From Flavobacteriales bacterium (GTDB lineage Bacteria; Bacteroidota; Bacteroidia; Flavobacteriales; UBA7312): DNA of 64,000 nucleotides. Below are positions 1 through 12,440 of the stretch, piece after piece. Each line of letters opens with the position of its first letter. Position 1 is the first letter of the stretch. The notes under the pieces are model-generated. The model was not told where the DNA came from. It saw nothing but the letters and a program-made list of their open reading frames with translations, and made no database searches. The stretch is taken from assembly GCA_016779935.1 (NCBI GenBank), contig JADHMQ010000002.1, positions 1 to 64,000 on the forward strand, written 5' to 3'. A program made the position numbers and the translations under genes.

Positions 1-540
1 GGAAACCCTGGTGTCAAGTACGAAAATACAAGACACAATATAGGATTTAAAGTATTGGACGCTCTAGCCGAGTCGTCCAATACTTCTTTTAAAGAGGAAA
101 AACACGCTTACTACACTTCCATAAAACATAAGTCCAGAACCTATCACCTTATTAAACCTACCACTTTTATGAATTTGAGTGGCAAAGCCTTAAACTATTG
201 GATGCAACATCTAAAAGTTAAAGTCGAAAATGTTCTTGTGGTGACCGATGATATTGCTTTGCCCTTTAGTGTCATGCGACTTAGAGGCAAAGGCTCAGAT
301 GGTGGACACAACGGTTTAAAAGACATCAACTATTACTTAGGACATACTAAATATGCCCGTTTACGCTTTGGAGTAGGCGATCAGTTTTTGAAAGGGCAAC
401 AGGCTCAATACGTCTTATCGGAGTGGACAACAGACGAAGAAAAGGACTTGTCAGAACGCATTCAACACGCCACAAAGATGGTACTCGCTTTTGGCACTAT
501 TGGCTTGGCACGAACCATGAGTGATTTTAATGGAAAATGA
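1..540 (+). CDS. pth: Peptidyl-tRNA hydrolase, 5' end outside the window
   Basis: Releases tRNA from prematurely dropped peptidyl-tRNA by cutting the ester bond, so the tRNA can be reused. The reading frame is open from base 1, giving 179 residues, with only roughly the first ten missing. The fragment opens with GNPGVKYENTRHNIGF, the family signature; His12 of the fragment is the catalytic histidine. FMNLSG and GGHNGLKDI carry the conserved substrate-binding asparagines, and VVTDDIALP the conserved aspartate. A TTG at 55 is internal and not the start, because the signature lies upstream of it. Identification is secure. Confidence 0.95.
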   Translation, partial: GNPGVKYENTRHNIGFKVLDALAESSNTSFKEEKHAYYTSIKHKSRTYHLIKPTTFMNLSGKALNYWMQHLKVKVENVLVVTDDIALPFSVMRLRGKGSDGGHNGLKDINYYLGHTKYARLRFGVGDQFLKGQQAQYVLSEWTTDEEKDLSERIQHATKMVLAFGTIGLARTMSDFNGK

Positions 541-576
541 TTCCTTAGTTCAAGGTATCGCAGTTTCCCTACCTAA

Positions 577-1380
577 CTAATTTACCTTTCTTATCAGCCA
601 AATATCTTGTGTAGCTTTTCCATTTATAATATCTCCAGCAATATGCTCTAGTACTTTATGTTTGCCCACGAGTTTATGGATAAAATTTTTAGGATGATGA
701 CTAGCAAAACTTCGATGTACTACTTTAATGCTTTTATGCTCTATGAGTTTATCGTCAAAAAACCGTTCTTTTTCTTCATCTGATAATTTGTTGATGAAAG
801 CCTCTCCACTTAAAGTAATCTGTAATGTCCCATTTGGTTTAAGAATGCGAATCAATTCATCAAACCATTTATAGTGCAATTCTTCAGAAAGATGAGTGAA
901 AATAGAAATGCCATAAATAGCATCAAAGGTATTTTCATTGTAGTTTGTAGGTGGATATAATTGATTGGTACTGAATTGAATATTCTTAATATTTTTTGTG
1001 CACCAATTGATATACTTTAAATTATAATCTGTTCCGTAGCATATGCAATTTGGACTAAGTATTTTTGGAAAATGTCTTATTACCCTAGCTGTTCCACAGC
1101 CCCAATCTAAAAGCTTAATGTTGTCGATAGGCATATATTTATTGAAACGCTTAAGAATATGCTTTGCTGTTTCAATACTCCCAAAGTAATACGTATTATA
1201 ATTACTTATTCCAAATGCTTCATACATATAATAGGCTGGAGGTAGAATAATGTGAGGATTACTTTTTTTAAATCGTAATCTCTGTGTTGTACTTTTAATA
1301 TAGTGATAAAGAAAAAATAAGTAATCAACTATAAGTATAAAGAAAGTAGGTCTTAATGTTTTAAGAAGTAATTTTTTCAT
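577..1380 (-). CDS. Class I SAM-dependent methyltransferase
   Basis: A 267-residue protein with a Rossmann-fold methyltransferase core. LLDWGCGTARV (residues 90-100) is motif I, which binds S-adenosylmethionine; GTDYN is motif II-like; FDAIYGISIFTHL and LIRILKPNGTLQI fit motifs IV and VI. The first 30 residues are basic then hydrophobic (TFFILIVDYLFFLYHYI), suggesting a membrane anchor. The substrate cannot be told; this type is common in polysaccharide loci. Its ATG overlaps the TGA of the upstream T9SS gene by four bases, so the two are probably co-transcribed. The sequence is visibly more AT-rich than the housekeeping genes nearby, which may mean recent acquisition. Confidence 0.8.
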   Translation of the reverse strand: MKKLLLKTLRPTFFILIVDYLFFLYHYIKSTTQRLRFKKSNPHIILPPAYYMYEAFGISNYNTYYFGSIETAKHILKRFNKYMPIDNIKLLDWGCGTARVIRHFPKILSPNCICYGTDYNLKYINWCTKNIKNIQFSTNQLYPPTNYNENTFDAIYGISIFTHLSEELHYKWFDELIRILKPNGTLQITLSGEAFINKLSDEEKERFFDDKLIEHKSIKVVHRSFASHHPKNFIHKLVGKHKVLEHIAGDIINGKATQDIWLIRKVN

Positions 1381-2975
1381 TGAATAACTAAACTACTAAT
1401 ATATGATTTTTTGTCATTGCTTAACTCAATAAAATAGATACCTGTTCTTAAATTCGTTTTAATTGGGAAGTACTTGTCTGAATATTGGCCATTTTCAAAA
1501 ATTAGACGACCTGATGAATCATAAATATTTATTCTATTTATTATATCTTCACTATCGATTTTGAAATTACCTTTACTTGGGTTAGGATAAATTTTCACAA
1601 CACTATTGTTATCAATTTCATTTCGTCCTCTTAAATTTGCTCCCAAATCAATATACTTTTTAGCTTCTAATTTAACGTTGCAACCTTCTTGAAATGATAC
1701 GTTTTTATTGATGTATATTTCTTCACCATAAAAGTTGATTTCAGAGTTATTTAGAAAATTAATGTTACAATTATTACCTCCTAGGGATATCTTTTTCGCA
1801 AATACATCAGGGTATTTGGTCCAGTATGTTTTATTACATACGTTAATGTAAATTTCAAAGTTATCCACAACTCTAAACAGTTGTCCTTCTCCTTTTTCTA
1901 AGTAGGCGTTTAAAAAAGCCCCAGTAGTTAATTCGTTTTCAAATTGATTTAAAATTGAATAATTATCGTTAAAGTTTAATTTTAGGCTTAAACCATTTTT
2001 TATACTCTTGTTGAAAATCCAAAAATAATTATTCTCATATTTATCTTCCATAAACGAAATAACAAAATTTGACATATTAGAATTATTATTTGTTTCAATA
2101 GGATTTTGAGCGTCAAAAAGACTATTGAAAAATAAGTCGTTCTGTAAGTTCTGCCAATTCGATTGTGAAGGAATGATTGTTGTTTGGTTTTCTCCAATAC
2201 CTGTGTTCGTAGAATAGTGATATACATTTTTTAATTCTAAAGAAAATAATAAATCCCCATTATCGATTAAATTACCGTGTAGTTCTTTCAAACTTTCTTT
2301 TGTGGTTTGGCTTACAAGATTATCCCAAAATTTCGACCCTAACCAAGAATGATTAGAGCAATTGATGCTATATCCATTGCCACAGCCACCTGCTTGACCC
2401 TCTCTAGCCCAATAGAAAATTCCTTTTGATCCGTAAACTAAATTAGAGAAGATAACGTAGTTAAATTCAGCAATTTTTTTCCCTTCACCTGAGGGCATTC
2501 TTGGTGTAAACATTATAAAATATGGGAGATTATACTCTTTACCTAATGAAGAAAGAATTTGTAAGTTTTGAAAGTAATTTGTGTTGCCACTCATTGGGTA
2601 GTGGTCTACAGATAAAAAGTTCGGATTAGTTATATTTATAAAATCTTTTATGTAATTTTTATACTGTTGTATGTTAGCCTGTGGGCCAATATATTCATGA
2701 TTTATTTCTAATTGATTTTTTGTTGAGTAATTTGGGTATAAATTAGAAAACCTGATTTTATTGTCACTATAATTATGTATAGCATCAGAAAAAGGTTTAG
2801 TTGTTGAAAAGTGTGCGTTTTTTGATGGTTCGTCGACAATATGCCACCCAATTACTGCTGGGTGTGAACCATAATAATTTAATGCCGAACTACATTTTTC
2901 AAAGTCAAAATTTGGGTTGTCATTATTTCTATATACACTTATTTCGTGACAATTTAAAATAACTTTCAGATTCAA
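1377..2975 (-). CDS. Glycoside-hydrolase-like T9SS type A protein, N-terminus missing
   Basis: At least 532 residues. The visible N-terminus is already inside a TIM-barrel enzyme: LKVILNCHE is a beta-strand, GWHIVDEP resembles the acid/base Glu motif of clan A glycosidases, and GSKGIFYWAREGQ resembles a late barrel strand. The C-terminus, from VVKIYPNPSKGNF to the end, is a T9SS type A sorting domain, so the protein was made for export to the surface. There is no signal peptide and no in-frame ATG near the front. The listed start is an internal TTG; the frame stays open to 3146 and reads sensibly to about 2999 (DFLSRAHSLNLKV). The gene therefore looks decapitated, by deletion, rearrangement or misassembly. 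Substrate unknown. Confidence 0.7.
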   Translation of the reverse strand: MNLKVILNCHEISVYRNNDNPNFDFEKCSSALNYYGSHPAVIGWHIVDEPSKNAHFSTTKPFSDAIHNYSDNKIRFSNLYPNYSTKNQLEINHEYIGPQANIQQYKNYIKDFINITNPNFLSVDHYPMSGNTNYFQNLQILSSLGKEYNLPYFIMFTPRMPSGEGKKIAEFNYVIFSNLVYGSKGIFYWAREGQAGGCGNGYSINCSNHSWLGSKFWDNLVSQTTKESLKELHGNLIDNGDLLFSLELKNVYHYSTNTGIGENQTTIIPSQSNWQNLQNDLFFNSLFDAQNPIETNNNSNMSNFVISFMEDKYENNYFWIFNKSIKNGLSLKLNFNDNYSILNQFENELTTGAFLNAYLEKGEGQLFRVVDNFEIYINVCNKTYWTKYPDVFAKKISLGGNNCNINFLNNSEINFYGEEIYINKNVSFQEGCNVKLEAKKYIDLGANLRGRNEIDNNSVVKIYPNPSKGNFKIDSEDIINRINIYDSSGRLIFENGQYSDKYFPIKTNLRTGIYFIELSNDKKSYISSLVIQ

Positions 2976-2982
2976 AGAGTGA

Positions 2983-3345
2983 GCACGACTTAAAAAGTCT
3001 AGTACTGGAGTTGTTTCAGTATTTGAAACAGACTCTAACGGTTGTGCGTCTGATACAGCAAAACTTACGGTTACGATTGATTCTACAGTAAGTATAGTAG
3101 AAAAAGAGACTCTGAATATTAGAGTATACCCTAATCCATTCGAAAACTATACAGCAGTAGAGTTTGATAATCCTCAAAGTGAGCATTACACAGTAAAATT
3201 AATAGATGTTAGAGGGAGGTTAGTTCATCATCAAGAAGTAATTACAGAACGATTAGTCATTTATAGAAATCAAATGCAAAGGGGTATCTATTATTTGGAA
3301 GTTGATGGTAAACGTAAGGCTCGAGAAATAGTAATTATTCAATAA
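2983..3345 (+). pseudogene. C-terminal remnant of a second T9SS type A protein
   Basis: Frame 1 is open from just after a TGA at 2980 to the TAA at 3343 and has no start codon with a signal peptide. It reads as the tail of an adhesin-like protein: FETDSNGCASDTAKLTVTI resembles the end of an Ig-like or PKD-type repeat. After it comes NIRVYPNPFENYTAVEF, then LIDVRGRLV and RGIYYLEVDG, a complete type A sorting domain. It has no upstream body: at about base 3000 it runs into the glycosidase-like gene on the opposite strand. It has no ATG near its beginning. A strong terminator follows directly. Confidence 0.7.
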
Positions 3346-3346
3346 A

Positions 3347-3377
3347 ATATAAAAGCCCCAATTTGGGGCTTTTATAT
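3347..3377. terminator. Bidirectional terminator between T9SS remnant and glyS
   Basis: A 13-bp perfect stem, atataaaagcccc (3347-3359) with ggggcttttatat (3365-3377), and a 5-base loop. The GC core is flanked by A-runs on one side and T-runs on the other. It can end the plus-strand T9SS gene and the minus-strand glyS transcript. Confidence 0.85.
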
Positions 3378-3392
3378 TTGAGTTTTGAGGCA

Positions 3393-4922
3393 TTATAAGT
3401 AGTTTCTAAAATCCACTTTTTTTGAAACAAGTGCATGTAAGCTGTCTATTGCTACTCGCTCTTGAGTCATAGTGTCTCTGTCTCTAACTGTTACTGTATT
3501 GTCTTCCAAGCTTTGGTGATCTACCGTAATGCAATAAGGTGTACCTATAGCGTCTTGACGTCTATAACGTTTACCAATGGAGTCTTTTTCTTCGTATTGG
3601 CACAGGAAGTCGCACTGAAGAAGACTCAAGATTTCACGAGCCTTTTCTGGCAATCCATCCTTTTTAGTTAGGGGCAAAATCGCTGCTTTCACAGGAGCCA
3701 ATAATGCAGGGATTGACAATACTAACCTGTTTTCGCCATTCACCTCTTCCTCTTTATAAGAGTTGCTAAGAATAGTTAAAAACATTCGGTCAAGACCAAT
3801 GGAGGTCTCTACCACATAAGGGACATAGCTCTCATTAATCTCAGGGTCAAAGTATTGCACTTTTCGTCCTGAATGTTCCTGATGACTTTTCAAATCGAAG
3901 TCTGTACGAGAATGAATTCCCTCTAATTCTTTGAACCCAAAAGGAAACTTAAATTCAATATCGCAAGCAGCATTAGCGTAGTGGGCCAAATTGTCGTGGT
4001 CGTGAAAACGGAAAAGTTCTTTGTCGATTCCAAGACTCAAATGCCATTTCATTCTAGAGTCTTTCCAATGTTCATACCATTTCATTTCCTCGCCAGGACG
4101 AACAAAAAATTGCATTTCCATTTGCTCAAACTCGCGCATACGGAAGATAAATTGACGCGCTACAATTTCGTTTCTAAATGCCTTCCCAGTTTGTGCTATA
4201 CCAAAAGGAATTTTCATACGAGCAGTTTTCTGCACATTCAAAAAATTAACAAAAATACCTTGAGCGGTTTCAGGTCTGAGGTAAAGGTCAGTAGCCCCAT
4301 CGCTTGTCGACCCCATTTGTGTTTTGAACATTAAATTGAACTGACGAACATCGGTCCAATTTTTTGTGCCAGACACAGGGCAAACGATTTCTAACTCTTC
4401 AATAAGTGCTTTAACATCATCCAATTTATTAGCACTCATAGATTCGCTAAAGCGTTGCATAATGCTTAGGCATTTTGACTTGTAACCCAAAACTCTAGGG
4501 TTAGTGCTTACAAATTGTTCTTTGTCGAAACTATCGCCAAAACGCTTGATAGCTTTTTTGACTTCTTTATCAATTTTGCCTTCAATTTTAGCCACATAGT
4601 CTTCAATAAGAACATCGGCTCTGTATCGTTTTTTAGAATCTTTATTATCTATGAGAGGGTCGTTAAAAGCATCAACATGACCCGACGCTTTCCAAGTGGT
4701 AGGGTGCATAAAAATAGCAGAGTCCAAACCCACAATATTTTCATTCATATTAACCATTGACTTCCACCAATAGTTGCGAATATTATTCTTTAGTTCAGAG
4801 CCGTTAGGGCCATAATCATATACTGCTGCTAGTCCATCATACAACTCACTAGATTGAAAAATAAAACCATACTCTTTAGCGTGAGCAACGACTTTTTTAA
4901 ATACCTCTTCATAATTTGCCAT
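3393..4922 (-). CDS. glyS: Glycine--tRNA ligase, alpha2 type
   Basis: Charges tRNA-Gly with glycine. The 509 residues match the single-chain dimeric glycyl-tRNA synthetase, not the alpha2beta2 form. Class II motifs are visible: the N-terminal SSELYDGLAAVYDYGPNG, motif 2 in AFRNEIVARQFIFRMREFEQ, and motif 3 in ETSIGLDRMFL. A C-terminal anticodon-binding domain follows (PVKAAILPLTKKDGL). The gene stands alone, with its own promoter box five bases ahead of the ATG and a shared terminator behind. Confidence 0.96.
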   Translation of the reverse strand: MANYEEVFKKVVAHAKEYGFIFQSSELYDGLAAVYDYGPNGSELKNNIRNYWWKSMVNMNENIVGLDSAIFMHPTTWKASGHVDAFNDPLIDNKDSKKRYRADVLIEDYVAKIEGKIDKEVKKAIKRFGDSFDKEQFVSTNPRVLGYKSKCLSIMQRFSESMSANKLDDVKALIEELEIVCPVSGTKNWTDVRQFNLMFKTQMGSTSDGATDLYLRPETAQGIFVNFLNVQKTARMKIPFGIAQTGKAFRNEIVARQFIFRMREFEQMEMQFFVRPGEEMKWYEHWKDSRMKWHLSLGIDKELFRFHDHDNLAHYANAACDIEFKFPFGFKELEGIHSRTDFDLKSHQEHSGRKVQYFDPEINESYVPYVVETSIGLDRMFLTILSNSYKEEEVNGENRLVLSIPALLAPVKAAILPLTKKDGLPEKAREILSLLQCDFLCQYEEKDSIGKRYRRQDAIGTPYCITVDHQSLEDNTVTVRDRDTMTQERVAIDSLHALVSKKVDFRNYL

Positions 4923-4926
4923 GTCG

Positions 4927-4934
4927 CAAAAATA
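4927..4934 (-). promoter_or_regulatory. -7 box of glyS
   Basis: TATTTTTG on the minus strand matches TAnnTTTG, the -7 element of the Bacteroidota primary sigma factor. It ends four bases before the glyS ATG, which implies a leaderless or nearly leaderless mRNA. Confidence 0.6.
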
Positions 4935-4968
4935 AACATATTAGTTACACTTTTACATCCTCTTTTGT

Positions 4969-4976
4969 TATCTTTG
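4969..4976 (+). promoter_or_regulatory. -7 box of the DUF3109 gene
   Basis: TATCTTTG matches TAnnTTTG and stops five bases before the ATG at 4982. No clear -33 TTG stands at the best spacing. The glyS box lies 34 bases away on the other strand. Confidence 0.6.
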
Positions 4977-4981
4977 TATAG

Positions 4982-5554
4982 ATGGTTCAGATTGAAGACA
5001 AGATTATTTCATTAGACGTGTTTGACAGACAATTTGCTTGCGACTTATCCGCTTGCAAAGGAGCATGTTGCGTTGACGGAGATGCTGGAGCCCCATTAAA
5101 TGATGATGAGCTTTTTGTACTGTCTGAAATTTTTGATGAGGTAAAACCATATATGCGTCAAGAAGGAATTGACGCTATTGAAGAACAAGGCTTTTATGTC
5201 GTTGATTCAGACGGTGATAATACCACTCCCTTAATCAATAATAATGAATGTGCATTTGTTTCCTTTGATGTTGACGGCACAGCAAAATGCAGCATCGAAC
5301 AGGCTTATAATGAGGGTAAAGTCGACTTTAAAAAGCCTATATCTTGTCATCTTTTTCCGATAAGAATTGAAAAGTATAAAGATTTTGACGCAGTTAATTA
5401 TGAAGCCATAGACATTTGCAAGCCAGCTTGTGATTGTGGGGAAAAATTACAAATGCCTGTCTTTCGTTTTTTAAAAGAACCACTTATTCGACACTATGGA
5501 GAAAAATGGTTTGAGGAGCTGTGTGAAGCCGACAAACTTTTAAAAAATAGTTAA
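4982..5554 (+). CDS. DUF3109 family cysteine-rich protein
   Basis: A 190-residue soluble protein of unknown function, common in Bacteroidota. The cysteines are highly patterned: CDLSACKGACC near the front, then NNECAF, AKCSIEQ, ISCHLFPIRI and ICKPACDCGEK. That set resembles the YkgJ-like group and suggests a bound zinc ion or iron-sulfur cluster, but the ligand is not known. ATG 4982 is chosen because a promoter box sits directly before it. It is followed by the long nrdB leader, so it is probably monocistronic. Confidence 0.8.
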   Translation: MVQIEDKIISLDVFDRQFACDLSACKGACCVDGDAGAPLNDDELFVLSEIFDEVKPYMRQEGIDAIEEQGFYVVDSDGDNTTPLINNNECAFVSFDVDGTAKCSIEQAYNEGKVDFKKPISCHLFPIRIEKYKDFDAVNYEAIDICKPACDCGEKLQMPVFRFLKEPLIRHYGEKWFEELCEADKLLKNS

Positions 5555-5923
5555 TCAACGAGCTAATAATTTTTGTTTTTCAATTTTTTGAAACGTAAAA
5601 TGACATCCATTTTTTTTTGAAAAAAATCTTGACTTTTTGAAAAGTTTCAACTTGCTCGGTTAAGCAATTTTTTTTTGAAATAAAAAAAACAGAGGACTGT
5701 TAACAACTTGAATTTATTGTGAATAAAATTGAATTGCTTTCGTCTTTTTTTTTTGAAACATTTGTTGTGAGCTAATTCATATATCAAACGCACTGTTTGA
5801 ATTTACAAAAGTTGAATTGGTTGTGTTTTAGGAGTAAATCCCATAAAATGTAAAGCTAACCTGAAAGGTGGAGAAATCAAAATTTTCTCTAGGAAAACCT
5901 TTCGCTAAATTTTAAAATGAAGA
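5555..5923 (+). promoter_or_regulatory. 369-base non-coding nrdBA leader
   Basis: There is no plausible gene on either strand. The first part is T-rich and holds five runs of the form T(5-10)GAAA, ending at G5590, G5619, G5639, G5677 and G5755. The last 70 bases hold a nested hairpin (separate entry) that ends 17 bases before the nrdB ATG. No exact TAnnTTTG box is visible; TAAAATTG at 5724-5731 is one mismatch away. No NrdR-box pair was recognised. Control of nrdBA probably resides here. Confidence 0.5.
5854..5906 (+). promoter_or_regulatory. Nested hairpin in the nrdB 5' leader
   Basis: AGC (5854-5856) pairs with GCT (5904-5906), GAAAGGT (5863-5869) with ACCTTTC (5897-5903), and GAGAAA (5871-5876) with TTTCTC (5884-5889). 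This gives a two-stage hairpin with an asymmetric internal loop (5890-5896). It has no T-tail, so it is not a plain terminator. A regulatory RNA or a ribosome-access switch is possible. I do not recognise it as a known riboswitch class. Confidence 0.45.
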
Positions 5924-6907
5924 ATGGCAACAGCTATTGAACCCATACTCAAAGAGAACGCAAATCGTTTCGTTTTATTTCCTATAGAACACGACGATAT
6001 TTGGAAGTGGTATAAGAAACAAGAAGCTAGTTTTTGGACTGCTGAGGAGATTGATTTGCATCAAGACCTAGTAGACTGGGAATCAAAGCTGAATGACGAT
6101 GAACGCTACTTCATCAAGCATATATTAGCGTTCTTTGCAGCAAGTGATGGTATCGTAAATGAGAACCTAGCTGAGAATTTTGTAAACGAAGTTCAGTATA
6201 CTGAGGCAAAGTTCTTTTACGGTTTTCAAATTATGATGGAGAACATCCATTCAGAAACCTATTCGTTATTAATTGATACCTACATCAAAGACAAGAAAGA
6301 AAGAAACCAGTTGTTTACTGCCATTGAACATTTTGATGCTATTAAGAAAAAAGCAGATTGGGCAATCAAGTGGATTGGAAGCGATTCTTTTGCTGAAAGG
6401 CTAATTGCTTTTGCAGCTGTTGAGGGAATTTTCTTCTCCGGCTCATTTTGTTCTATCTTCTGGCTCAAGAAAAGAGGACTTATGCCAGGTCTTACGTTCT
6501 CAAACGAGCTTATAAGTAGAGATGAAGGTTTACATTGTGATTTTGCATGTCATTTACATAATCACCACCTAATCAATAAAGTTCCTAAAGAGAGAATAAA
6601 AGAAATTATAGTAGACGCATTAGATATCGAAAGAGAGTTTATCATTGAATCTTTACCAGTAAAATTAATTGGTATGAATTCGGATTTAATGACCAAATAT
6701 TTAGAGTTTGTTACCGATCGCCTGTTAGTAGAATTAGGCTGCGAGAAGGTTTACAATTCTGAAAACCCATTTGATTTTATGGAAATGATTTCCTTAGAAG
6801 GAAAAACAAATTTCTTTGAAAAAAGAGTAGGTGATTACCAAAAAGCGGGAGTATTAGGTGAATCATCAGACTCAAAAGATAATTTTTCGTTTGACGACGA
6901 TTTTTAA
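5924..6907 (+). CDS. nrdB: Ribonucleotide reductase class Ia small subunit
   Basis: Carries the di-iron/tyrosyl-radical cofactor that starts reduction of ribonucleoside diphosphates to deoxyribonucleotides. At 327 residues it resembles the eukaryotic-like R2 group. Metal ligands can be placed: Asp75 in [13 protein letters not shown], Glu106 and His109 in [10 protein letters not shown], then the Glu of [10 protein letters not shown] and the Glu and His of [11 protein letters not shown]. Tyr113 is the radical tyrosine. The C-terminus NFSFDDDF is the tail that docks onto the large subunit. nrdA follows 35 bases later, so the pair is an operon with the structured leader in front. Confidence 0.96.
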
Positions 6908-6942
6908 TAGAAGTAAGTTACTTAACAAGTAAAAATAAAAGG

Positions 6943-9330
6943 ATGTTTGTAGTAAAAAGAGATGGAAGAAAAGAGTCAATAAAGTTTGATAAGATTACGG
7001 CTCGAATTCAAAAGTTATGTTATGGCTTTAGTGACTTGGTAGAACCTACCGCAGTTGCTATGAAAGTAATTGAGGGAATTTATGAAGGTGTAACTACTTC
7101 GGAGCTAGATAATTTAGCTGCTGAGGTGTCAGCTTCAATGACCACCCGTCACCCCGATTATGCCTTATTAGCTTCCAGAATCTCCGTTTCTAACTTACAC
7201 AAAGACACCAAGAAATCGTTTTCCGAAACGATGACTGAGCTATACAATTACATCAACCCAAAGACGGGCAAGAAAGCACCATTGATTGCTGACGATGTTA
7301 TTAAAATTATCAAAAAGAACGCCGAGCTTTTAGACTCTACCATCATTTACGATAGAGATTTTTGCTACGATTACTTCGGCTTTAAAACATTAGAGCGTTC
7401 TTATCTTTTGAGATTAAATGGTAAAGTTGCTGAACGACCACAGCACATGCTTATGCGTGTAGCTATTGGTATTCACAAAGAAGATATACAGTCTGCTATT
7501 GAAACGTATGAGTTGATGTCGCAGAAATATTTTACACATGCTACTCCTACATTATTTAATGCTGGAACGCCTAAGCCACAAATGTCATCTTGTTTTCTAT
7601 TAACAATGAAAGACGATAGTATTGATGGGATTTACGATACACTAAAGCAATGTGCAAAAATTTCTCAATCAGCAGGTGGTATAGGTCTAAGCATTCACAA
7701 TGTACGAGCAACAGGCTCGTATATTAGAGGAACTAACGGGACGTCTAATGGAATCGTTCCAATGCTAAGAGTATTCAACGATACAGCACGCTACGTTGAC
7801 CAAGGCGGTGGCAAAAGAAAGGGTTCATTTGCTATTTACTTAGAACCTTGGCATGCTGATGTTTTTGATTTCTTAGACTTAAGAAAAAACCATGGTAAGG
7901 AAGAAATGAGAGCAAGAGATTTATTCTTCGCTTTATGGACTCCAGATTTATTCATGCAAAGGGTTAAAGAAGACGGAGAATGGACGCTAATGTGTCCTAA
8001 CGAATGTCCAGGTTTAGCAGATACTTACGGAAAAGATTTCGAGAACTTATACAAAAAGTACGAGAAGGCAGGGAAAGGCAGAAAGACGATTAGAGCAAGA
8101 GAGTTGTGGGAAAAGGTAGTAGAGTCTCAAGTTGAAACGGGCACACCTTACATTCTTTACAAAGACGCTTGTAATGAGAAGTCTAACCAAAAGAACTTGG
8201 GAACTATTCGTTCTTCCAATTTATGTACTGAAATTATAGAGTACACTGCGCCAGATGAAGTTGCTGTTTGTAACCTTGCTTCAATTGCATTACCAATGTT
8301 TATTGATGAGGAGAAAAATGTATTCGACCACGAAAAGCTATATAACATCACTCGTGTAATTACTAAAAACCTAAACAAAGTAATTGATAGAAATTACTAC
8401 CCTGTTGCAGAAGCTAAAAATTCAAATATGCGTCACAGACCTGTTGGACTCGGAGTGCAAGGTTTAGCAGATGCATTTATTAAACTTCGTTTACCTTTCG
8501 ATTCTCCGGAAGCAAAAGTGTTGAATGAAGAAATTTTTGAGACCATTTATTTTGCTGCTTTAACATCATCAATGGAATCCGCGAAAGAAGAGGGGGCATA
8601 TCAAACTTATGAAGGCTCTCCAATCTCTCAGGGTCTGTTCCAGCACAACTTGTGGGGTAAGAAAGACGAAGAGCTAAGCGGAAGATGGGCTTGGGGAGAA
8701 CTAAGAAATCAGATAAAAGAAAATGGTGTGCGTAACAGCTTATTATTAGCTCCTATGCCAACAGCATCCACTTCTCAAATCTTAGGAAACAACGAATGTT
8801 TCGAGCCATACACATCAAACATCTATACTAGACGTGTGTTGTCAGGAGAGTTTGTTGTCGTAAACAAACACCTACTACTTGATTTGGTACAGTTAGGCTT
8901 ATGGAACGATGAAATGAAAAATGAAATCATTAAAGCAAATGGTTCTGTTCAAGGTATTGAATCAATTCCTGAAAACATCAAAGCACTTTACAAAACCGTT
9001 TGGGAAATTAAGATGAAAGATATCATTGATATGTCAGCCGATAGAGGACACTTCATTGACCAATCTCAATCTCTAAACTTATTTATTGATCAGCCTAACA
9101 TTGGCAAGATTACATCAATGCATTTTTACGCTTGGGAGAAAGGTCTCAAAACAGGGATGTACTACCTAAGAACAAAAGCGGCTACTCAAGCGATACAGTT
9201 TACGGTACAAAAGCAAGCTAAATCTCAACTCGAACCAGTTGTTGCTAATAAAGAAGGAGAGTACACTTCTGAAGAAGCGATAGCATGTTCAATTGACAAT
9301 CCAGACGATTGCATAGCTTGTGGTTCTTAG
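6943..9330 (+). CDS. nrdA: Ribonucleotide reductase class Ia large subunit
   Basis: Catalytic and allosteric subunit of the same enzyme. Its 795 residues begin with an ATP-cone ([18 protein letters not shown]), so activity should be switched by the ATP/dATP ratio. SSCFLL holds the first redox cysteine, SNLCTEIIE the thiyl-radical cysteine, and [10 protein letters not shown] the second redox cysteine. The C-terminal tail DDCIACGS carries the CxxC that is reduced by thioredoxin or glutaredoxin. [18 protein letters not shown] is the conserved late barrel segment. It follows nrdB and is closed by a strong terminator. Confidence 0.97.
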
Positions 9331-9350
9331 ATAGAAACTAATTAAGTTAG

Positions 9351-9388
9351 TCATAAAAAAAGCTCGCATTTGCGAGCTTTTTTTATGA
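9351..9388. terminator. Bidirectional terminator between nrdA and acyl-CoA dehydrogenase gene
   Basis: A 17-bp perfect palindrome arm pair (tcataaaaaaagctcgc with its complement) around the 4-base loop attt. The core agctcgc/gcgagct is flanked by A6 and T6. It serves nrdA on the plus strand and the dehydrogenase gene on the minus strand. Confidence 0.9.
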
Positions 9389-9405
9389 TGTGATTTATAT
9401 ATTTT

Positions 9406-10584
9406 TTATACAAAGGCATTTTCACCAGTAATATCCAAACCTGTGATGAGTAGGTGAATGTCGTGCGTACCTTCATATGTAACTACAGACTCTAAATTCA
9501 TCATGTGACGCATGATAGGGTATTCACCAGTAATTCCCATACCACCCAACATTTGTCGAGCATCACGAGCAATTTTTAGTGCCATATCTACATTGTTTCT
9601 TTTACACATAGAAATTTGAGCAGAAGTTGCTCTGCCTTCATTACGAAGAACACCTAATCTCCATGTAATAAATTGTGCTTTTGTGATTTCCGTAATCATC
9701 TCAGCTAATTTTTTTTGTTGAAGCTGAAAGCCAGCAATGGGTTTACCAAACTGAATACGTTGTTTAGAATATCTAAGAGCTGTATCGTAGCAGTCCATAG
9801 CTGCACCGATAGTTCCCCAAGCAATTCCATAACGGGCCGAGTCCAAACATCCTAGCGGCGCACCTAAACCGTCTTTATTTGGCAATAGGTTTTCTTTTGG
9901 TACTTTAACATTATCAAATACCAATTCGCCAGTAGCTGAAGCCCTTAGACTCCATTTGTTGTGAGTTTCTGGAGTTGAAAAACCTTCCATTCCTCTTTCT
10001 ACAATTAATCCTTTAATTCGTCCATCTTCATTCTTTGCCCAAACAATAGCAATATCTGCAAAAGGAGAATTAGATATCCATAGTTTCGCGCCATTTAACA
10101 AATAGTGGTCGCCCATATCCTTAAAATTAGTTACCATCCCACCTGGGTTAGAACCAAAATCAGGCTCGGTCAAACCAAAACAACCTACCATTTCACCACT
10201 TGCTAATTTTGGCAAGTATTTCTGACGTTGCTCTTCGTTACCATATTTGAAAATAGGGTACATTACTAAGGAAGATTGAACGGAAGCAGTAGAACGAATT
10301 CCACTATCGCCTCTTTCCAATTCTTGCATGATTAGTCCATAAGAAATTTGGTCAAGTCCAGCGCCACCATATTCAACTGGAATATATGGGCCAAAAGCAC
10401 CAATTTCTGCTAACCCCGAAACAAGATGATTAGGAAATTCAGCTTTTTGACAGCTTTCCTCAATAATTGGCGACACCTCTCTTTTTACCCAATCACGTGC
10501 TGCATCACGAACAAGCTTGTGTTCTTCAATCAGTAAGTCATCGAGTTGAAAATAATCTGGTGCTTGAAATAAATCTGTAGACAT
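9406..10584 (-). CDS. gcdH: Glutaryl-CoA dehydrogenase-like acyl-CoA dehydrogenase
   Basis: FAD enzyme predicted to oxidise and decarboxylate glutaryl-CoA to crotonyl-CoA in lysine and tryptophan breakdown. The 392 residues show the acyl-CoA dehydrogenase order: N-terminal helices, GCFGLTEPDFGSNPGG (FAD and substrate binding), LNGAKLWISNSPFADI, then the C-terminal domain with RIQFGKPIAGFQLQQ and QMLGGMGITGEYPIMR. SVVTYEGTHDIH holds the catalytic glutamate in the context typical of glutaryl-CoA dehydrogenase, which separates it from short-chain relatives. Monocistronic, with its own -7 box. Confidence 0.88.
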   Translation of the reverse strand: MSTDLFQAPDYFQLDDLLIEEHKLVRDAARDWVKREVSPIIEESCQKAEFPNHLVSGLAEIGAFGPYIPVEYGGAGLDQISYGLIMQELERGDSGIRSTASVQSSLVMYPIFKYGNEEQRQKYLPKLASGEMVGCFGLTEPDFGSNPGGMVTNFKDMGDHYLLNGAKLWISNSPFADIAIVWAKNEDGRIKGLIVERGMEGFSTPETHNKWSLRASATGELVFDNVKVPKENLLPNKDGLGAPLGCLDSARYGIAWGTIGAAMDCYDTALRYSKQRIQFGKPIAGFQLQQKKLAEMITEITKAQFITWRLGVLRNEGRATSAQISMCKRNNVDMALKIARDARQMLGGMGITGEYPIMRHMMNLESVVTYEGTHDIHLLITGLDITGENAFV

Positions 10585-10606
10585 AATGTTGTTTATTAAG
10601 TGAGTA

Positions 10607-10614
10607 CAAAATTA
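10607..10614 (-). promoter_or_regulatory. -7 box of the glutaryl-CoA dehydrogenase gene
   Basis: TAATTTTG on the minus strand, an exact TAnnTTTG match. It lies 22 bases before the ATG, giving a short leader of roughly 18 bases. Confidence 0.5.
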
Positions 10615-10660
10615 TTGAATAATTTATGATAAATGGCTAAATTGCAATAAAATCCACCAG

Positions 10661-11014
10661 ATGAAACAAACGATTTTTACTTTTTTTATGCTATTGCTTA
10701 TAATTTCTTCTTGTAAAAAGGAGGAATTAACGGAGCCTATTGAGCCAATAGAACCTCAAGTTGAGACGTATGCCTCTATAAAAAGCATTATTGATAATAA
10801 TTGCGTGCTATGTCATGCCATAAATCAAAATGCATACATAACGGATTTCACATCATACGACAACATTAGTTCTTACTTAGATAACCCAGATAATACAATG
10901 ATTGATAGACTAAATTCCGATGATGAATTTTATAAAATGCCTCCAAACGGTGAGCTTTCTCAAACGGATAAAGGACTCTTAATTTCATGGATTAATGACG
11001 GCTATATTCAATAG
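10661..11014 (+). CDS. Small cytochrome c-like lipoprotein
   Basis: A 117-residue protein with a lipoprotein signal: hydrophobic TIFTFFMLLLIIS ending in the lipobox IISSC, so Cys18 would be lipidated. A Glu/Pro-rich linker follows (EPIEPIEPQVE). The rest resembles the c-type domains of Bacteroidota surface lipoproteins: CVLCH is a heme-binding CxxCH motif, KMPPNG offers a methionine as sixth ligand, and GLLISWINDGYIQ is the closing helix. It may carry electrons in the periplasm; the partner is unknown. The next ORF starts on the base after its stop codon, and hemD comes after that, which fits a heme link. Confidence 0.7.
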   Translation: MKQTIFTFFMLLLIISSCKKEELTEPIEPIEPQVETYASIKSIIDNNCVLCHAINQNAYITDFTSYDNISSYLDNPDNTMIDRLNSDDEFYKMPPNGELSQTDKGLLISWINDGYIQ

Positions 11015-11644
11015 ATGGATTTAATTGCAGAGGCATATAATTCGCCCAATCAAGAGTGGGTATTTATTCTTTTTATTTTCTTCTTTTCATATATAACATT
11101 TCTGAAGTATAATTATTTCTCAAGATTTGTTTTAATACTTAAGTCGCCATTTAGCCAAAAACATGCTAATCAGTTTCTAAGAGAAGAATCTAGATCATCC
11201 AATAAGTTGTATTTATTACCTCTTTTTGCTGCCTTTTTATCAATGTATGTTGTTGCTCAGTCCTTCTCGATGGTTTCTTTTATTTTTCATTTTAGTTGGA
11301 TTATATCCTTCCTTTTTTTTAAATATTTATTTTTAGTTTGGTTGGCATATATATTCCAGAAAAAATATCAATTTGAAGAAATAATTTTTCAATCTTTTCT
11401 GTATGAACGTGTGGCAGCTATAGTGATATTCCCTTTACTATTGCTTTTGTTTTACACTAGTATACCACAAAACTTAGTTCTAAATTTTATTTATATTTTT
11501 CTTGTTTCATTTACAATTTATAAAATTGTCAGAATGGCCTATTTGAGTTTTTTTAACTCATCATTTTCTAAAGCACATATAATTATATATCTTTGCACAC
11601 TTGAAATTCTACCGTTAATAATCTTGTCAAAATATCTTTGTTAG
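11015..11644 (+). CDS. DUF4271 family integral membrane protein
   Basis: A 209-residue protein with about six hydrophobic segments (for example FILFIFFFSYITFL, LPLFAAFLSMYVVA, IISFLFFKYLFLVWLAYIF, IVIFPLLLLLFY, FIYIFLVSFTIY). It fits DUF4271, a Bacteroidota family usually found directly before hemD, as here. Function is unknown. The ATG immediately follows the TAG of the lipoprotein gene, suggesting translational coupling. A role in heme handling or in anchoring the neighbouring cytochrome is only a guess from context. Confidence 0.75.
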   Translation: MDLIAEAYNSPNQEWVFILFIFFFSYITFLKYNYFSRFVLILKSPFSQKHANQFLREESRSSNKLYLLPLFAAFLSMYVVAQSFSMVSFIFHFSWIISFLFFKYLFLVWLAYIFQKKYQFEEIIFQSFLYERVAAIVIFPLLLLLFYTSIPQNLVLNFIYIFLVSFTIYKIVRMAYLSFFNSSFSKAHIIIYLCTLEILPLIILSKYLC

Positions 11645-11684
11645 ACTTATTTGCGGTGTTGTTTATAATTAAAAACATTTCTTT

Positions 11685-12440
11685 TTGAAAGAGAATAAAG
11701 TTAGAACTATTCTGGTTTCACAGCCAAAACCTGAGTCAGACAAGTCGCCGTATTTTAGTTTAGCTAAGAGGTGTAATGTTAAAATTGACTTTAGACCATT
11801 TATACATGTTGAAGGATTATCGGCTAAAGAATTTCGTCAACAAAAGATTAGTATTTTGAGTCATGATGCTGTAATTTTTACCAGCAAGAACTCAATGGAC
11901 CATTTCTTTAGAATGTGTGAGGCTACAAGGATTACTGTTCCAGAAGAAATGAAATACTTCTGTGTTTCAGAAGCAATTGCTTACTATCTCCAAAAGTATA
12001 TTACTTACAGAAAAAGAAAGGTATTTATCGGAAAGCAAAAGATTGAAGATTTACATCCAGTATTCAAGAAAAATAAGGAAAGTAAATTCCTCTTACCATG
12101 TTCTGATATTCTGAAAGATAGTATTCCAGAATTTTTGGCTGATAATGGTTTCGACTTTACCAAAGCCGTAATGTATAACACAGTATGTAGCGATTTATCC
12201 GATTTGGAAAATGTATTTTATGACATATTAGTATTCTATAGCCCATCAGGAATAAAGTCCCTTTATCAGAATTACCCTGACTTTAAGCAAAACAATACTC
12301 GAATAGCAGCTTTTGGACCTACAACGTCAAAGGCAGTAGCGGATGCTGGATTGACATTAAACATCAAGGCGCCAAGCCCAGAGTATCCGTCTATGACAAT
12401 GGCATTAGAGCAGTATATAAAAACTGCTAATAAGCGTTAG
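11685..12440 (+). CDS. hemD: Uroporphyrinogen-III synthase
   Basis: Closes hydroxymethylbilane, with inversion of ring D, into uroporphyrinogen III, the branch point to heme. The 251 residues open with KVRTILVSQPKPESDKSPYF, the typical start of the Bacteroidota enzyme. The two-domain fold is visible, with AVIFTSKNSMDHFF in the first lobe and VFYSPSGIKSLYQNYP and IAAFGPTTSKAVADAGL in the second. The start is a TTG at 11685: the frame is closed by a TAA at 11670 and no ATG lies between. It comes 40 bases after the DUF4271 gene. Confidence 0.88.
   Translation: MKENKVRTILVSQPKPESDKSPYFSLAKRCNVKIDFRPFIHVEGLSAKEFRQQKISILSHDAVIFTSKNSMDHFFRMCEATRITVPEEMKYFCVSEAIAYYLQKYITYRKRKVFIGKQKIEDLHPVFKKNKESKFLLPCSDILKDSIPEFLADNGFDFTKAVMYNTVCSDLSDLENVFYDILVFYSPSGIKSLYQNYPDFKQNNTRIAAFGPTTSKAVADAGLTLNIKAPSPEYPSMTMALEQYIKTANKR

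Follow-up and report, generated by a model that had tools for sequence, protein, structure and literature searches.

Homology-facilitated illegitimate recombination (HFIR), described in S. pneumoniae, A. baylyi, P. stutzeri and E. coli, leaves foreign DNA flanking the event at one end and, at the opposite end, a non-homologous join that truncates genes (PMC3240628). Integration hotspots in which variable cargo lies between two conserved core genes, with no recognised mobile element and with an incongruent flanking core gene, are driven by recombination at the flanking core genes, and homologous recombination has been proposed at both flanks (PMC5635113). In the T6SS clusters of V. cholerae, for which an HFIR-type mechanism has been proposed, effectors are displaced sequentially as incoming modules anchored on one side replace part of the resident gene and leave remnants behind (PMC5361080). 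The locus analysed here lies at the left end of a 64,000-nucleotide stretch (hereafter the window; positions 1 to 64,000 of contig JADHMQ010000002.1, assembly GCA_016779935.1) from a member of the Flavobacteriales family UBA7312, and it presents what is probably an event of this known kind, with a foreign flank, variable cargo between core genes, no recognised mobile element, an incongruent flanking core gene, and a putatively non-homologous join at which a module that would be anchored on one side truncates genes and leaves remnants. It departs from the HFIR cases in that the homologous end would lie beyond the contig and in being a natural event read from one metagenome assembly; from the core gene-flanked hotspots in having a native right flank and a join that falls inside a probably resident gene; and from effector displacement in the genes involved and in showing no sign of selection for the remnants, both of which are probably dead. 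The two remnants resemble T9SS type A cargo proteins (Por_Secre_tail, PF18962/TIGR04183) in that each keeps a complete C-terminal sorting domain, and differ from such cargo in having no N-terminal signal peptide.

Comparison with the other genomes of the family provides the context for the junction. In six of the eight readable relatives (G001, G002, G004, G007, G008 and G009) pth and glyS converge as adjacent genes, their matched regions separated by 33-77 bp, whereas in the window the same gap extends over 2.85 kb (541-3392) and holds a methyltransferase gene, two truncated genes referred to here as A and B, and a terminator (Table 1). The gap is also filled in the remaining two relatives: in G006 by an HTH/C5-methylase/NgoPII-like endonuclease set and a T9SS gene, and in G003, read from two contigs that both end inside the gap, by a methyltransferase homologue (65% amino acid identity, contig G003:C10) that immediately follows glyS on one of them and by a T9SS gene next to pth on the other. 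As the site is empty in six relatives and carries different cargo in the window, G006 and G003, the sequence comparison identifies it as an insertion hotspot, a context that the preliminary description had missed together with the switch of ancestry across the region. We detected no tRNA in window positions 1-12000 and saw no integrase or recombinase in the open reading frame list for 1-9000, which was inspected mostly by eye with few frames searched against families; nor did we find a donor genome with an intact gene A or methyltransferase gene adjoining pth. Within the filled gaps, the G006 set (L051:6740-8975, on G006:C2) consists of an HTH regulator, a C5-cytosine methylase and an NgoPII-type endonuclease placed between glyS and pth, at the same site as the window insert. 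The G003:C10 methyltransferase homologue (L050:6351-7154) contains one in-frame TAG and may be a pseudogene, and one TAG is likewise reported within the matched range of the G006 glyS (L026; G006:C2:231018-232532), near the C-terminus.

Table 1. Features of the pth-glyS region, numbered from the first nucleotide of the window.
Feature	Positions	Strand	Evidence
pth (peptidyl-tRNA hydrolase), 5' end cut by contig start, g3 type	1-540	+	DNA identities, AU test
Class I SAM methyltransferase, intact	577-1380	-	Pfam Methyltransf_25/11; start codon overlaps gene A stop
Gene A, glycosidase-like, T9SS sorting domain, beheaded	1377-2999	-	Por_Secre_tail; homologues L063-L068 with intact N-terminus
Junction, about 14 bp at most readable in both genes (TCTAGTACTGGAGT = 2998-3011)	2995-3012		Frames; homologue and paralogue alignments
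Gene B, T9SS protein, final 114 residues, front missing	2998-3345	+	49% over 114 aa to C7 paralogue; Por_Secre_tail
Bidirectional terminator	3345-3379		17-bp perfect inverted repeat; common to C7 paralogue
glyS (glycyl-tRNA synthetase), native g1 type, right hotspot flank	3393-4922	-	90% DNA identity to G001; tree

The minus-strand gene A had been described as reading sensibly up to about 2999 without a start or signal peptide, and our analysis bears this out. Its stop is at 1377, and the most upstream ATG, GTG or TTG of the frame is an internal TTG at 2975; the frame stays open to 3146, but that part runs only antisense to the plus-strand gene B. The body of the protein is similar to roughly 400-residue proteins found in other families of the order (best identity 37%), one of these proteins matching the GH42 model. 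In these homologues about 107 profile positions, signal peptide included, precede the alignable core, and gene A keeps about 37 of them, so that by comparison about 70 N-terminal residues, including the signal peptide, are missing. The gene A protein ends in a T9SS type A sorting domain (Por_Secre_tail) that scores above both the Pfam and the NCBIfam cut-offs. A degenerate-pattern scan of the genome contigs returned no relatives of gene A, the catalytic part found no match in a PDB sequence search, and a single-sequence AlphaFold2 model was unusable (mean pLDDT 35).

Gene B, on the plus strand, has an intact paralogue in the same genome (G000:C7:55821-56162, minus strand, in a 769-aa frame), to which its residues align full length (1-114) from position 3001. 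Upstream of the homology the frame encodes a non-homologous ARLKK and then meets a TGA, in agreement with the earlier observation that this frame makes sense only from about 3000. Its Por_Secre_tail sorting domain, like that of gene A, exceeds the Pfam and NCBIfam cut-offs; both genes do keep complete sorting domains and have lost their fronts at the same point, as originally noticed. The core of the terminator (AAAGCCCCAATTTGGGGCTTT) is found elsewhere in the window genome (G000) only behind the C7 paralogue, with 3 mismatches, and gene B is thus most likely the end of a resident gene. On the assumption that it is the recipient's gene, recipient DNA was lost at the join, as the front present in the intact C7 paralogue is absent here.

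Because two independently recognisable genes are both without fronts at one place, the paired truncation is not a chance reading of open frames. Outside the join, genes A and B show no relationship, their sorting domains being 19% identical, and their frames may overlap by up to about 14 bp (2998-3011), so that the join could be placed anywhere in this interval. No start codon followed by a signal sequence occurs in either frame, and because both are without an N-terminal signal peptide, export of either product as it stands is predicted to be impossible; both are presumably pseudogenes, and the fact that the two frames are still open suggests that the beheading event is recent. The contig crosses position 3000 without an N and without a fork, and the 22-mer spanning the junction has no match in IMG/VR. 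Two small hairpins lie beside the junction, at 2987-2999 (GACTTAAAAAGTC) and at 3008-3035 (an 11-bp stem inside gene B), which together are no stronger than those of shuffled sequences (z = -1.74).

The genes on the two sides of the insert differ in their affinities. We denote as g1 the genus of the window genome and its genus-mate G001, and as g3 the sister genus that includes G007 and G006. At the DNA level the window pth (1-540) is 97.8% identical to G007, 95.3% to G006 and 77.8% to the genus-mate G001, whereas glyS is 90% identical to G001 and 78-81% to g3. Across the window from glyS rightwards, identity is 83-94% to G001, compared over about 14 kb, and 64-86% to g3 up to about 60 kb. In line with these values, the window pth groups with G007 in phylogenetic trees, glyS (support 100) and the next gene group with G001, and the AU test rejects a grouping of the window pth with G001 (p = 0.00013). 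The flanking core gene pth thus disagrees phylogenetically with glyS and with the remainder of the window, which is a recombination signal, and as pth is of g3 type and the sequence from glyS rightwards of g1 type, identities and trees place a switch of ancestry between 540 and 3393. Codon usage does not discriminate the genera for the methyltransferase gene or for genes A and B. With gene B and its terminator native in appearance and the window methyltransferase having its sole family homologue in G003, a g3 genome, the switch would most simply coincide with the junction near 3000.

We consider the junction to be probably a genuine recombination scar between genera, with 541-3392 as cargo in the pth/glyS hotspot. 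In the one-step mechanism that we envisage, an incoming fragment from a co-occurring g3 population would have carried pth, the methyltransferase gene and gene A, and would have paired by homology at or upstream of pth, in which case the left breakpoint would lie beyond the contig start. Its other end would have joined illegitimately inside the resident gene B next to glyS, with no more than about 14 bp of microhomology (TCTAGTACTGGAGT); the resident gene would have lost its front, gene A would have been kept only as far as the fragment carried it or trimming spared it, and two non-secreted pseudogene tails would have been left back to back. A real junction is favoured because each flank sits where synteny predicts, an outcome that a random misjoin would seldom produce; because the contig is unforked at 3000, although forks do break this assembly and leave shared tips of 139 bp; and because gene B and its terminator match the g1 paralogue, pth is of g3 type and the sequence from glyS rightwards of g1 type. 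Whether the wider proposition also holds, namely that two co-occurring genera of uncultured marine Flavobacteriales, about 78% identical in DNA, exchanged core genes flanking a cargo hotspot (pth, perhaps with rplY and prs), with an illegitimate end that beheaded a gene on each side, appears to us evenly balanced; were it to hold, cross-genus chromosomal recombination would be active in these small-genome bacteria.

The structure of the assembly bears directly on the main rival explanation, a chimeric contig in which the left 3 kb, from a g3 strain in the same metagenome, was misjoined by the assembler or through a chimeric read to a g1 contig at about 3000, each real genome having an intact gene there. 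Where contig ends of the window genome meet or fork, the overlap is exactly 139 bp, as it is in G006. Three tips are common to both bins at this length (G000:C2:1 with G006:C2:237557, the start of G000:C11 with the start of G006:C8, and the end of G000:C14 with the start of G006:C13), so that both bins, although from different genera, derive from one metagenome assembly graph. The tips at window base 1 and at the end of G006:C2 are also overlapped, but by only 137 bp, by contig G006:C32, where prs, rplY and the start of pth lie. Under the logic of an assembly graph, there should therefore be another shared node, about 141 bp long, whose second upstream neighbour diverges from C32 immediately before window base 1. 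This second neighbour does not occur in the bin, in which native prs and rplY were not found, and the left end of C32 overlaps no contig of G000 and no other contig of G006. A cross-species chimera is therefore conceivable, and the g3-like left tip on an otherwise g1 contig is what such mixing would produce.

These points give the chimeric join, one of the possibilities raised in the preliminary description, some circumstantial weight. Against it, the two sides of the join are correct syntenic neighbours, and intact copies of A and B in the sample should have forked or broken the contig at 3000, whereas sequence from 2850-3150 recurs at none of the 112 contig ends read in the two bins, which thus offer no source for the missing fronts. 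Although this argument from the unforked contig leans on assembler behaviour and is no substitute for reads, we judge a chimera unlikely and a real recombination junction the more probable origin. Repeated sorting domains do break this assembly: the right end of G000:C5 (L069) and the left end of G000:C14 (L070:1-230) share a T9SS sorting-domain stretch with 99.6% identity across 230 bp, after which the two diverge before the stop, similar repeats occur at C18_end, C19_end and C20_start, and such repeats may reflect recent gene conversion or domain exchange.

A deletion had also been put forward, and in its fullest form two complete divergent T9SS genes would have stood between pth and glyS until a later deletion took both starts and the intervening DNA, the foreign pth having come with the island or separately. 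The divergent arrangement of A and B, which a single deletion would behead together, and the location at an island site fit such a history, but the ancestry switch then requires an extra event and A and B occur together in none of the relatives, and we regard it as improbable. The third suggestion, a site-specific or repeat-mediated inversion that joined the tails and moved both fronts elsewhere, is rejected as extremely improbable, whether as a simple inversion or as a shufflon, given that pth and glyS retain their ancestral convergent order, that no fused fronts were found and no long inverted repeat at the junction, where there are small hairpins only, that no recombinase was seen among the frames of 1-9000, inspected mostly by eye, and that the sorting domains are as divergent as the preliminary description held when it doubted a shufflon on that ground, even though near-identical T9SS sorting domains at other contig ends of this genome show that sorting-domain repeats exist.

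Should the contig prove chimeric, it would serve as a warning that a contig tip in a bin with an estimated contamination of 0.01 can carry the DNA of another genus. If instead the junction is a real scar of recombination between genera, it would preserve a fresh and readable record of cargo entering a hotspot without a mobile element, homologous at one end and illegitimate at the other, with the genes on both sides beheaded and a core gene carried across the genus boundary.
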